Positions 15,593-21,154 of a stretch of 64,000 nt of DNA are shown piece by piece. Position 1 is the stretch's first letter. Each line of letters starts with the position of its first letter. The notes beneath the pieces were generated by a model. That model did no database searches. It saw only the letters and a list, made by a program, of their open reading frames with translations, and was not told the origin of the DNA. The translations under genes were made by a program, and so were the position numbers. The stretch is from Colwellia sp. PAMC 20917 (GTDB lineage: Bacteria > Pseudomonadota > Gammaproteobacteria > Enterobacterales > Alteromonadaceae), in assembly GCF_001767295.1 (NCBI RefSeq), contig NZ_CP014944.1:124001-188000 (forward strand). Reading direction: 5' to 3'.

Positions 15593-16279
15593 TTAATAGA
15601 TAAAGGAACCTATTGGATTCAGTAATTTATTAATGCCCTGTGTAAAGTGCATAGCGTCATTAGCTACAGTATAACAAAGACAACCATTGCTTGAAATTGG
15701 ATTATGAAGATGCTCACCATCAAGCATAATAAAGTCACCTTTTACATATTCACCCTTTTCATCATGAAAAGAACCTTCTAATAATAACGTTAACTCAAAA
15801 CCTTTGTGGGTATGTTGAGGAACAGAGCCGGTTGGCTCCATGTGCAACAAATTAGTATGAATTTCATTTTCATCAAGCTGTACACGTTTTCTTGCTAGTT
15901 TACCTATATGTGCTGTTTTTCCCAACATCATATTATTCAATACGCTAGGTAATTGATAAGACTTATCTTTAAAACTGATTGTTTTTGTTTCAACGGGTTG
16001 CATAACATCAACCGCATCAGAATCTGTGATGCCATTAATCATGTCATCAAAATTTATCGCTAAAATACCTTCAGAAACTAAATCGCCACCACTGTGAGTA
16101 GTATTTGTAGTTGACTCATCAAAATTCAATTCTGCTACCTGGTCAGTTAACAGTGATATTTTCTGTTGACAAGTTGAACACATACTAGCGTGAATGGAGA
16201 TACCTGCGGACAAAGAAGCCGGTAAATCACCATTAACAAACGACTGTATTAACTCAAATTTTGGGTGATGTTTAATCAT
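15593..16279 (-). CDS. chrR: ChrR-like cupin anti-sigma factor
   Basis: A 228-aa zinc-binding anti-sigma factor of the ChrR type that holds the adjacent ECF sigma factor inactive until photooxidative stress. The N-terminal zinc finger shows His4/His5, His30, Cys34 and Cys37 (IHASMCSTCQQK), the spacing of Rhodobacter ChrR. The C-terminal cupin has HTHKGFELTLLLEGSFHDE and the downstream GEHLHNP histidine. It overlaps the sigma gene by 8 bp, as is usual for such pairs. In R. sphaeroides the cupin domain is needed for the response to singlet oxygen; the same role here is inferred. Confidence 0.88.
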   Translation of the reverse strand: MIKHHPKFELIQSFVNGDLPASLSAGISIHASMCSTCQQKISLLTDQVAELNFDESTTNTTHSGGDLVSEGILAINFDDMINGITDSDAVDVMQPVETKTISFKDKSYQLPSVLNNMMLGKTAHIGKLARKRVQLDENEIHTNLLHMEPTGSVPQHTHKGFELTLLLEGSFHDEKGEYVKGDFIMLDGEHLHNPISSNGCLCYTVANDAMHFTQGINKLLNPIGSFIY

Positions 16280-16889
16280 GATTTTCTCCTAACTGCACTT
16301 TGAGTTTTGCTAAAGCTAAACGCAAACGAGATTTTATAGTACCTAGAGGTAGATTTAGATGGTTCGCTAGTTGTTCTTGAGACATTTCCATAAAATAGAA
16401 ACCTTTAACAACTTGCTGTTGCGCTTCTGGTAATTTCTCAATTACTGATAAAAGCTCTTTATTTTCAAGATGATCATCAAATGATTCATCTTCACTTACT
16501 TGGCTTTCTGCTAATGGCCAAATGTCATCACTGAGGTTGTCTTCTTTATTGCCCTTAATCTTACGTAACATATCAAAAGTTACATTTCGCATGACTGTAT
16601 AAACCCAAGTCGTAGCAGCTCCTTTGTCTTTATCAAATAGATGGGCTTTGCGCCAAATATTACTCATGGTCTCTTGAACCACTTCGCTTGCTTGTGCTTC
16701 ATTAGGGAATTTACCCCGGGCAATTCGTTGAATTTTAGGTGCAAAAAAATGAAACAAATCGGTGAATGCTTTTTTATCTCTTGTGCTTGCAACGTCGTTA
16801 AGCCACTGACAAAGCTGAGGATGATTAATTTTTTCTGTCATGTTACTAGATTTAACATTTGTCACTGTGCTTAGCAAGTTAGTTTGCAT
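16272..16889 (-). CDS. rpoE: ECF sigma factor, RpoE/ECF11 type
   Basis: An ECF sigma factor of 205 aa from the ATG at 16889 (a GTG at 16901 is in frame; an ATG at 16841 would give MTEKIN). Region 2 includes EVVQETMSNIWRKAHLFD and WVYTVMRNVTFDMLRK. Region 4 is LPLGTIKSRLRLALAKLK, preceded by EMSQEQLANHL. It overlaps the ChrR-like anti-sigma gene. Its neighbours (phr, cfa, DUF1365, FAD oxidoreductase, TIGR01777 protein) are classic singlet-oxygen regulon members. A promoter with the shared motif lies directly upstream, so autoregulation is likely. The rpoE symbol is used in the Rhodobacter sense, not the E. coli envelope-stress sense. Confidence 0.88.
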   Translation of the reverse strand: MQTNLLSTVTNVKSSNMTEKINHPQLCQWLNDVASTRDKKAFTDLFHFFAPKIQRIARGKFPNEAQASEVVQETMSNIWRKAHLFDKDKGAATTWVYTVMRNVTFDMLRKIKGNKEDNLSDDIWPLAESQVSEDESFDDHLENKELLSVIEKLPEAQQQVVKGFYFMEMSQEQLANHLNLPLGTIKSRLRLALAKLKVQLGENHD

Positions 16890-16921
16890 CACTTCTATCA
16901 CCGTTTTATTATATTTAAATG

Positions 16922-16973: not shown

Positions 16974-17543
16974 TTATTTATCTATAACAGATTGAACCAA
17001 TTCTTTTGCCGCTTGAAAATCATGGTCAATAATAAATGTAGCTTTAATGTCTAAATCTATTGGTAGCAGCTCTAGCCATCTTGCAATAACCCAAGTTGGA
17101 CGAGTGATTTCTTTTTGCTGATATAAATCATCTAAGTCCGGATTGTTCGTGAACACGTTTGCTAAAGACTCTGACAACTCAGAGAGTGAAGTATCGACTG
17201 AAGATTGTGACCAATGATGAATTTGCTTTACATCACCAAAATACAATTTATCGCTATCTAAGGTTAACGTATTAATTTCTACTAATGATTTACATTTGAC
17301 ATCAATTTCTAATATTCCGTCATTTCCTTGATCAAAATTAATAATTTCGACCCAACTTCCCCACAGTGAATTGGTAATATCATTATTGCTATTCTTTGAC
17401 CATATAACGAAGCCACCATTTTTAGAAGCAATACCCACCATTTTTAAATAGCGGGCTTCAAATATTCTTAATTTGGTGATTCCCTCAGGTAGAAGGAATA
17501 TAGGCAAAGGAAAAACAGGTAAATTGATTGTAGTTATTTTCAT
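16974..17543 (-). CDS. LON substrate-binding domain protein
   Basis: A 189-aa stand-alone Lon N-terminal (substrate-binding) domain. The start INLPVFPLPIFLLPEGITKL followed by RIFEARYLKMV is diagnostic of the family; there is no ATPase or protease domain. Such proteins (about 190-220 aa) are widespread and of unclear function, perhaps in protein quality control. The gene is the next one upstream of the sigma factor on the same strand. It is preceded by a candidate ECF promoter (17572-17600) and by the tandem sRNA array, so it is probably part of the stress regulon. Confidence 0.85.
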   Translation of the reverse strand: MKITTINLPVFPLPIFLLPEGITKLRIFEARYLKMVGIASKNGGFVIWSKNSNNDITNSLWGSWVEIINFDQGNDGILEIDVKCKSLVEINTLTLDSDKLYFGDVKQIHHWSQSSVDTSLSELSESLANVFTNNPDLDDLYQQKEITRPTWVIARWLELLPIDLDIKATFIIDHDFQAAKELVQSVIDK

Positions 17544-17571: not shown

Positions 17572-17600
17572 TATATACGTTTATGGACACAAAATGATCA
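17572..17600 (-). promoter_or_regulatory. Candidate ECF promoter of the LON-domain gene
   Basis: On the minus strand TGATCA (17600-17595), 17 bases, then TATATA (17577-17572) preceded by CG. The layout is the same as at the sigma operon. It ends 29 bp upstream of the LON-domain ATG. Confidence 0.65.
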
Positions 17601-17745
17601 CAATTACATTAAAATCACATAAGCAGAGGTGTAAAAACATCTATCTATGTGGTCTATGCATCTAAAGTAAACTACATTCAGTTAAGCCACTATGCTTTGA
17701 TCTGAGCCGATAGAGATTACTTGTTCATTATTACCGTCATGGTTT

Positions 17746-17775
17746 GTCATACGTTAAAAAACAAGCAATCGATCA
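17746..17775 (-). promoter_or_regulatory. ECF-type promoter of the third (decayed) repeat unit
   Basis: On the minus strand TGATCG (17775-17770), 18 bases, TATGAC (17751-17746), with CG before the -10. No GC-rich terminator follows before the LON-domain gene, so transcripts from here could read into that gene as a long leader. Confidence 0.55.
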
Positions 17776-17795
17776 CATAAAGATAAGTAACAGGC

Positions 17796-17919
17796 AAAAA
17801 AAAGCCCCATAGGCTGGGGCGTAAAAATATGCATATAAATAGGTTATGCATCAAAGGGTAAAACTATTTCTTAGTCAGAGTCACTATGTCATGTCGATAA
17901 AGATTAACTGTTATCGTCA
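17796..17919 (-). ncRNA. Candidate sigma-dependent small RNA, copy 2
   Basis: A predicted transcript of about 124 nt starting near 17919, seven bases after the -10 of the promoter at 17926-17955. It ends in a rho-independent terminator: GCCCCA/TGGGGC stem (17804-17820) followed by eight U (17803-17796). Two internal hairpins are predicted: CGATAA/TTATCG near the 5' end and TGCATA/TATGCA just before the terminator. Both stems are retained in copy 1, where the bases between differ. There is no ribosome site or convincing reading frame. The transcript is a prediction; no target is known. Confidence 0.6.
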
Positions 17920-17925
17920 TATTTA

Positions 17926-17955
17926 GTTATACGTTATTGGCCAGATAATCGATCA
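17926..17955 (-). promoter_or_regulatory. ECF-type promoter of candidate sRNA copy 2
   Basis: On the minus strand TGATCG (17955-17950), 18 bases, TATAAC (17931-17926), CG preceding the -10. It is nearly identical to the promoter of copy 1. Confidence 0.6.
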
Positions 17956-17975
17956 CTTAAAAGTAAATAATAAGC

Positions 17976-18094
17976 AAAAAAAAGCCCCATAGGCTGGGGC
18001 GTAAAAATATGCATATAAATAAGTTATGCATTAAAGGGTAAAACTATGTCTTAGTCAGAGTCACTATGTCGATAAAGATTAACTGTTATCGTCA
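17976..18094 (-). ncRNA. Candidate sigma-dependent small RNA, copy 1
   Basis: A predicted transcript of about 119 nt from near 18094 to the eight-U tail at 17983-17976. The terminator stem GCCCCA/TGGGGC lies at 17984-18000. The 5' hairpin CGATAA/TTATCG and the middle hairpin TGCATA/TATGCA match copy 2. A five-base gap near the 5' third is the main difference from copy 2. Predicted from sequence only. Confidence 0.6.
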
Positions 18095-18100
18095 TGTTCG

Positions 18101-18130
18101 GTTATACGTTAATGGCCAGATAATCGATCA
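18101..18130 (-). promoter_or_regulatory. ECF-type promoter of candidate sRNA copy 1
   Basis: On the minus strand TGATCG (18130-18125), 18 bases, TATAAC (18106-18101), preceded by CG. This is the same motif as at the sigma, LON, TIGR01777 and DUF2878 genes. Confidence 0.6.
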
Positions 18131-18150
18131 CTTAAAAGTAAATAATAAGC

Positions 18151-18174
18151 AAAAAAAGCCCCATAGGCTGGGGC
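18151..18174 (-). terminator. Rho-independent terminator after the fasciclin remnant
   Basis: Stem GCCCCA/TGGGGC (18158-18174) with loop TAGGC, followed by seven U on the minus strand. It is identical to the two terminators inside the sRNA array and ends whatever is transcribed through the truncated fasciclin gene. Confidence 0.8.
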
Positions 18175-18210
18175 ATAAAATCAACTCATTAGAAAATGTA
18201 ATACGACCTA

Positions 18211-18441
18211 TTAATCAAGAATTACGGTATCGATACCAACAGATATTTTGGTGTTAGATAATATTGCATCTATTCCTGTAGCCTGAAGTGCTGCGACTAA
18301 TGTAGTAAAACTGCCAATACTAATAGCAGCATCAACAATGGTTATTTTTTCTTTTTGTGTCTCTGTTGTTTTATCATCATTACAAGCTTGTAGAAAAAAC
18401 ATATTTATAATGGCTACTGTTAATACTTTAAAATATTTCAC
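18211..18441 (-). pseudogene. Fasciclin-domain lipoprotein, internally deleted
   Basis: A 76-aa frame with a lipoprotein signal (MKYFKVLTVAIINMFFLQAC) followed by TIVDAAISIGSFTTLVAALQ, the start of a fasciclin (FAS1) domain. Normally about 100 more residues follow; here the sequence goes almost directly to GIDTVILD, which resembles the last residues of a FAS1 domain (…HVIDTVILP). The frame is kept but the fold cannot be, so I read it as an internal deletion. Fasciclin-type proteins belong to the RpoE-ChrR regulon in Rhodobacter, which fits the location. It could still be a short expressed peptide. Confidence 0.6.
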
Positions 18442-18543: not shown

Positions 18544-18573
18544 TGATCTTATAAGATTAATACTACGTATTAA
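18544..18573 (+). promoter_or_regulatory. Candidate ECF promoter of the TIGR01777 gene
   Basis: On the plus strand TGATCT (18544-18549), 18 bases, TATTAA (18568-18573) preceded by CG. This is the only plus-strand example of the shared motif and it sits 30 bp before the ATG at 18603. Confidence 0.55.
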
Positions 18574-21124: not shown

Positions 21125-21154
21125 TATATACGTATCAATAAGAGAATAAGATCT
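21125..21154 (-). promoter_or_regulatory. Candidate ECF promoter of the DUF2878 operon
   Basis: On the minus strand AGATCT (21154-21149), 18 bases, TATATA (21130-21125) preceded by CG. It has one change from TGATCT in the -35, with spacing and -10 as in the other sites. Confidence 0.5.

Follow-up and report, generated by a model that had tools for sequence, protein, structure and literature searches.

Putative tandem small RNA genes with SigE-type promoters at the LON-sigma locus of Colwellia sp. PAMC 20917 and its relatives

Two described systems appear closest to the locus analyzed here, NsiR1 in the architecture of the array and Pos19 in the logic of the promoter. NsiR1, encoded upstream of hetF in Nostoc, is described as having 12 tandem copies with individual regulator-dependent promoters and divergent outer copies (PMC9045159). 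For Pos19 of Rhodobacter sphaeroides, an RpoE-ChrR promoter with the sequence TGATCC(N15)GCGTA, an intrinsic terminator, and dependence on Hfq are reported (PMC5036791). Rhodobacter also has four homologous sRNAs of photo-oxidative stress, CcsR1 to CcsR4 (PMC7074977, PMC5036791); RSs0680a, a CcsR, is reported to be RpoH2 dependent (PMC3688512). PrrH is described as the product of transcription that continues past prrF1 (PMC4211561). The SigE promoter motif of Vibrio cholerae is given as TGATC-N16-18-CGTAW, in a paper on the singlet-oxygen response whose main text does not contain the terms “sRNA” or “small RNA” (PMC5241685). No paper on sRNAs of the LON-sigma locus was found in our literature search, which covered few subscription journals.

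The window, i.e., the whole 64,000-nucleotide stretch of DNA that was analyzed, comes from a 4.68-Mb genome assembled in one contig. On its minus strand, positions 17640 to 18180 hold two near-identical promoter-transcript-terminator units and a third, decayed one. The order on this strand is a fasciclin gene remnant, a terminator, unit 1, unit 2, the decayed unit 3, and the LON-domain gene, followed by the genes for an ECF sigma factor, a ChrR-type anti-sigma factor, a DUF1722 protein, and a photolyase and, beyond these, a SnoaL-like protein, an SDR, an amine oxidase, and a DUF1365 protein. The gene downstream of the units (16974 to 17543, minus strand) encodes a 189-aa LON substrate-binding-domain protein (Pfam ID PF02190). 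The sigma factor (16272 to 16901, minus strand; NF009178, 340 bits with a cutoff of 301) and the ChrR-family anti-sigma factor (15593 to 16279, minus strand; PF12973 and TIGR02451, 161.5 bits with a cutoff of 124.5) are encoded by adjacent genes (15593 to 16901), and both score above their NCBIfam cutoffs; with the narrower and stricter ChrR model NF051881, the anti-sigma factor reaches 64.4 bits, below the cutoff of 300. ECF11, the group name used here, is our own label, taken from the promoter motif and the ChrR partner and not from an ECF-group model. At the array border, gene loss has reduced a fasciclin-domain lipoprotein gene to an N-terminal remnant of 76 aa (18211 to 18441, minus strand); the gene is full length (614 aa, four domains) in locus L049.

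The anatomy of the units, their promoter type (from motif and context), their conservation, the three unit-bearing clades, and the footprint of duplication can all be read from the sequences. All features of the array lie on the minus strand. Unit 1 (17976 to 18094) has a predicted sRNA of 119 nt with three hairpins, including the terminator, and a U8 tail; that of unit 2 (17796 to 17919) has 124 nt, with a 5-nt insertion after the first hairpin. Both starts are deduced from the promoters, and the lengths assume that transcription begins seven bases past the -10 element. The unit terminators have the sequence GCCCCAgcctaTGGGGC followed by eight T's and end at 17976 and 17796, and the terminator upstream of the first promoter (18151 to 18174) has the same hairpin sequence. 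The two units described in the initial annotation, with their TGATCG-N18-TATAAC promoters and eight-T terminators, are present where it had placed them, and both internal hairpins are found in each intact copy, as it had claimed. Its third promoter and decayed unit were recovered as well (17607 to 17775): the promoter has one mismatch (TATGAC, 17775), the eroded body is 67% identical over the 97-nt reference copy and scores 46.4 bits with model R1, and the terminator is absent. Over 1.7 kb, seven terminator-like entries were found, six of them from the three GCCCC hairpins, which were each counted twice, versus 0.6 +/- 0.9 in shuffles. Trans-acting sRNAs of the Hfq type end in an intrinsic terminator followed by at least 7 U residues, and both intact units have U8. 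Their fold z-scores, obtained with nearly full units, are moderate (-2.7 and -1.5).

A search of the whole 4.68-Mb genome with the array as a query returned only the array itself at an E value of 0.001 or less, and an origin as a mobile repeat was rejected, given this single site. Rfam searches with the window, L103, L105, L080, and L043 gave no match at the gathering thresholds; the weak matches to TarA (25.2 bits versus 80) and NsiR1 (RF02399 covariance model, 16.9 bits versus 39) were judged to be chance.

The promoters of unit 1 (18101 to 18130) and unit 2 (17926 to 17955) share the sequence TGATCG-N18-TATAAC, which can be written as TGATC-N17-CGTATAA and matches the V. cholerae SigE motif. 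A separate sigma promoter with one mismatch (TGATC-N16-CGTATAT, 17573 to 17600, minus strand) stands before the LON gene and has a homologous site in C. hornerae, and the sigma operon is preceded by an exact site (TGATC-N16-CGTATAA, 16950 to 16923, minus strand). The initial annotation had noted that the units share this motif with the sigma operon. Among 56 relatives, TGATC-N16-18-CGTA lies shortly 5' of the sigma gene in 55 (the exception is L070), whereas a stretch of equal length located 1 kb farther upstream contains it in only 1 of 56. In the window and 56 relatives (634,977 bases, both strands), exact core promoters number 125 and strict promoter-terminator units number 10; in 10 first-order Markov controls, the former averaged 2.0 (range, 0 to 5) and the latter were absent. 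The strict finder requires a perfect stem and an exact core and hence overlooks some units, including both of those in C. hornerae, whose -10 elements are degenerate (CGTAAGA and CGTACAA). Genome-wide, the longer core (CGTATAA, spacing of 17 to 20) has 5 occurrences, including 2 within the array, versus 2 in the control, so the exact motif alone is close to background. A promoter-like site with one mismatch precedes the divergent epimerase gene (18544 to 18572, plus strand), and one with two mismatches is seen at 21154 (minus strand), before the genes for DUF2878, chalcone isomerase-like, and DUF3833 proteins; given these sites, there may be a local regulon beyond the sigma operon.

Extra units upstream of the LON gene are found at 12 of the 60 distinct LON-sigma loci, in three separate clades, and their number per related genome varies from none or one up to seven or more; the other 48 loci have no unit by promoter scans, which units with a lost promoter would escape. 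A search with the sigma protein retrieved 56 named loci; that of C. hornerae (L043; sigma factor 98% identical) is the nearest of these and has two units in a place that matches the window array, and MB3u-41 (L044) has the end of one unit at a contig end. Three of the 6 genomes in the window's genus have the LON gene, and all 3 have units, one cut by the contig end. The second genus (including BRX10-3, C1TZA3, MB3u-45, and MB02u-6) is represented by 17 genomes; 16 of these have the LON gene, 9 with units and 7 in which the terminator of the upstream gene is followed by the LON promoter with no unit. Single units are found in six genomes (G270, G258, G282, G228, G194, and G175), and arrays of two units in G304, four intact units plus disrupted ones in G244, and seven or more in G315 (MB02u-6). 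In the last genome, the array is divided between two contig ends, one with five full units plus a partial unit and the other with three units. These ends may overlap, since the last full unit on one contig is identical to the first on the other except at 2 of 115 positions and the partial unit is similar to the unit that follows; the count is at least seven units, and higher if the ends are separate. Draft assemblies break inside the array in MB02u-6 (contig ends of L100 and L089) and in MB3u-41 (L044, positions 1 to 100). The C1TZA3 units contain two inserts of ~150 to 165 nt with TATACCAAT/ACTGGTAT ends (L077, 3225 to 3390 and 3785 to 3937; limits set by eye), which look like a MITE that took the array as a target.

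Family-wide model searches with strict filters gave matches in 4 (R1) and 10 (R2) of 295 genomes, of which 1 and 3, respectively, were judged not to be units. The R1 match in G256 was judged to be chance or a non-unit, G183 and G201 (terminator only) and G125 (LON promoter only) were set aside as non-units in the R2 search, and R2 overlooked the units of G258 and G175. With blastn, 58 of 78 genomes gave matches at an E value of 1 or less, and only the locus itself and G003 gave matches below 0.001.

In a FastTree tree of the LON and sigma proteins from the 60 distinct loci, the window groups with C. hornerae (L164) and MB3u-41 (L165) in clade A (support, 1.0), with units in 3 of 3 members. Clade B (support, 0.997) consists of eight members of the second genus, all with units: five single-unit genomes and three arrays, the latter forming one subclade. 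The third unit-bearing place is occupied by L155 alone, with a single unit (the tree labels L149, L156, L154, L150, and L155 stand for L077, L080, L089, L086, and L085, respectively). The simplest reading would be that units were gained three separate times. The L147 locus (G327; the same locus as L084) groups with L046 and not with its stated genus; it probably is a misbinned contig in a 66%-complete genome.

The relatives also suggest how the units may have arisen. In many of them (partly by eye), the terminator of the upstream gene, which is of fasciclin type or encodes a DUF3833 protein, stands directly before the LON promoter. In L103 and L105 (the same genomes as L152 and L159), the -35 element of the LON promoter shares bases with the U tract of the terminator before it (TTTTTTTTGATCG), which makes terminator and promoter one compact block. 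In L085, the terminator, promoter, and leader are duplicated 128 bases apart, with 63 of 69 positions identical, and the 3' region of the L046 fasciclin gene, with a TGCAT-type hairpin, a CCCT stretch, and a terminator, resembles by eye the 3' half of a window unit. Because of this duplication and this resemblance, a unit looks like the 3' end of the upstream gene placed behind a copied LON promoter. Units would thus be born by tandem duplication of the block made up of the upstream-gene terminator, LON promoter, and leader, so that what had been a junction between genes would become an independent transcription unit. Within array genomes, the promoter spacers are 0.92 to 1.00 identical, versus 0.71 to 0.87 between genomes, a sign of recent amplification or conversion. 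Whether the stress sigma locus in Colwelliaceae repeatedly spawns its own sRNAs, with the junction upstream of the LON gene duplicated in three clades and copy numbers from one to seven or more, we regard as evenly balanced.

Between the window and C. hornerae, the transcript body is conserved at 87/94, 84/94, 83/99, and 86/99 positions (84 to 93%, gaps counted as differences), versus 340 of 491 fourfold-degenerate sites in six genes (69%; Fisher P values of 3e-7 to 2e-3, the four pairs being paralogues and not independent), 7 to 9 of 16 positions in the promoter spacer (44 to 56%), and 17 of 22 in the terminator. For the clade B single units, ten pairs show 59 to 81% identity in the transcript, 22 to 50% in the upstream 80 bases, and 50 to 74% at fourfold sites. 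The clade B array bodies (0.79, 0.80, and 0.92 between genomes) exceed the respective fourfold sites (95/139, 96/138, and 126/143) only a little, and clade A, together with the comparison of single units and their own flanks, would provide most of the argument for constraint. The transcripts of clades A and B have no convincing common sequence (model R1 gives at most 20.2 bits on clade B array units), so it is their place, promoter, and origin, and not their sequence, that would make them one family. In clade A, hairpin 2 has 6 of 7 pairs unchanged and one two-sided change, and the terminator has one two-sided change; these two changes over five sequences were reached by 144 of 500 shuffles, so the covariation is weak. 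Possible small frames show no third-position excess (4, 2, and 1 and 4, 5, and 3 variable columns), and the units thus appear non-coding, as expected of an Hfq-type sRNA, although the test is weak and the frames are short.

We consider it probable that the units are ECF11/ChrR-controlled stress sRNA genes whose products probably act by base pairing, and the same evidence bears on several other readings. The units could be neutral by-products of duplication at the terminator-promoter junction, transcribed yet functionless; this would agree with the three separate unit-bearing clades, the decayed copy in the window, the plain duplication in L085, the MITE-like inserts within the L077 units, and clade B array bodies barely above fourfold sites, but the clade A body is conserved beyond fourfold sites and all eight clade B members retain at least one unit, which makes this reading unlikely. 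A very unlikely one, that the array acts as a sink in which extra strong promoters beside the sigma gene sequester its holoenzyme and the short terminated RNAs have no use, draws on the promoter having been multiplied along with the unit, on the array with seven or more copies, and on the isolation of each promoter by terminators. Such a sink predicts the opposite of what is seen in C. hornerae, where the RNA body was kept while the -10 elements drifted, and a few chromosomal sites would weigh little against the sigma pool.

The remaining readings assign the units a role in translation or in cis. That they serve the LON gene as a series of upstream promoters or a long attenuated leader is suggested by their position on its strand immediately upstream and by the lack of a terminator in window unit 3, from which the initial annotation had proposed a long LON leader. 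That proposal is weakened by the LON promoter at 17600 and by the termination of both C. hornerae units before the LON gene; more generally, the LON gene carries its own promoter in the window and the unit-bearing relatives, terminators close the intact units, and no unterminated unit was seen in C. hornerae, so we hold a cis role to be highly improbable. Each unit might instead encode a very short stress peptide, from a leaderless ATG in the window and a TTG frame in clade B, much as Pos19 is described as a coding RpoE-dependent sRNA (PMC5036791), and MTI[TS]VNLYRH is common to 3 of the 4 clade A units. However, 2 of these 4 have frameshifting indels, 2 of 9 clade B units lack the start codon, no ribosome-binding site was seen by eye, and the variable columns listed above show no excess at third positions; without a coding pattern in the small frames, we judged the peptide extremely improbable.

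For stress sRNA genes, the reading preferred here, we infer transcription, stress induction, involvement of Hfq, base pairing, and targets as follows. The units would belong to the ECF11 (SigE-ChrR, singlet-oxygen/light stress) regulon, and the released sigma factor, as SigE holoenzyme, would transcribe every unit from its own promoter into an RNA of ~120 nt that ends at the strong intrinsic terminator with its U8 tail. This RNA would most likely pair in trans through the conserved open stretch CAUAGUUUUACCCUUUAAU, probably with Hfq, and lower the translation of mRNAs under photo-oxidative stress; additional copies would raise the dose and leave room for copies to diverge. In clade A, the open stretch with the highest conservation would fit ribosome-binding sites, as its complement contains AAAGGG. 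Among 15 local translation starts compared with 200 shuffles, the best, that of the photolyase (10/200), was not significant after 15 tests. When the genome was scanned with a pattern complementary to the conserved stretch, 14 sites were found; 2 belong to the array itself, and the 12 non-self sites show no clear enrichment over the 8 of the reversed control. One site, AAAACTATG, spans the start codon of a glutathione S-transferase (GST) gene and fits part of the stretch; the match is kept in C. hornerae and absent in MB3u-41 (two of three species), so the GST start region is only a lead as a candidate target.

The birth of a bacterial sRNA gene rarely leaves a legible trail, and this one locus displays a plain junction, a single duplicate of recent origin, a single unit that has been conserved, arrays both short and long, and decay. 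If the proposed reading is true, the origin and dosage of an sRNA could be watched in living species, and an RNA arm would be added to the singlet-oxygen response of the ChrR type in marine bacteria that are not phototrophic. Since closely related genomes differ in copy number, the idea of a dosage effect is open to direct testing.

That multi-copy sRNA-type genes lie in the regulator's own locus, the central claim of the initial annotation, is supported at the sequence level by the SigE-type promoter, the ChrR score above its cutoff, and the retention of units in relatives. It had named the CcsR sRNAs as a precedent, which are a poorer one than Pos19: by description, RSs0680a depends on RpoH2, in contrast to the SigE-motif promoters of the units and the RpoE dependence of Pos19. 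PrrF1/PrrF2/PrrH and OmrA/OmrB are likewise tandem sibling sRNAs, but have two copies and other regulators (iron, curli, and motility), with no ChrR-type sigma factor. Pos19, as described, resembles the units in its RpoE-ChrR-type promoter and intrinsic terminator; it differs in being one 219-nt coding gene between cxp and fadB that reportedly was not found in other species (PMC5036791). NsiR1 shares with the units the architecture of a short sRNA in tandem copies with their own promoters beside a regulatory gene, whereas it is ~60 nt long, has HetR/DIF1 promoters, and belongs to cyanobacteria; NsiR1.1 is described as antisense to the hetF 5' UTR, whereas the units at this locus lie on the same strand as the LON gene.
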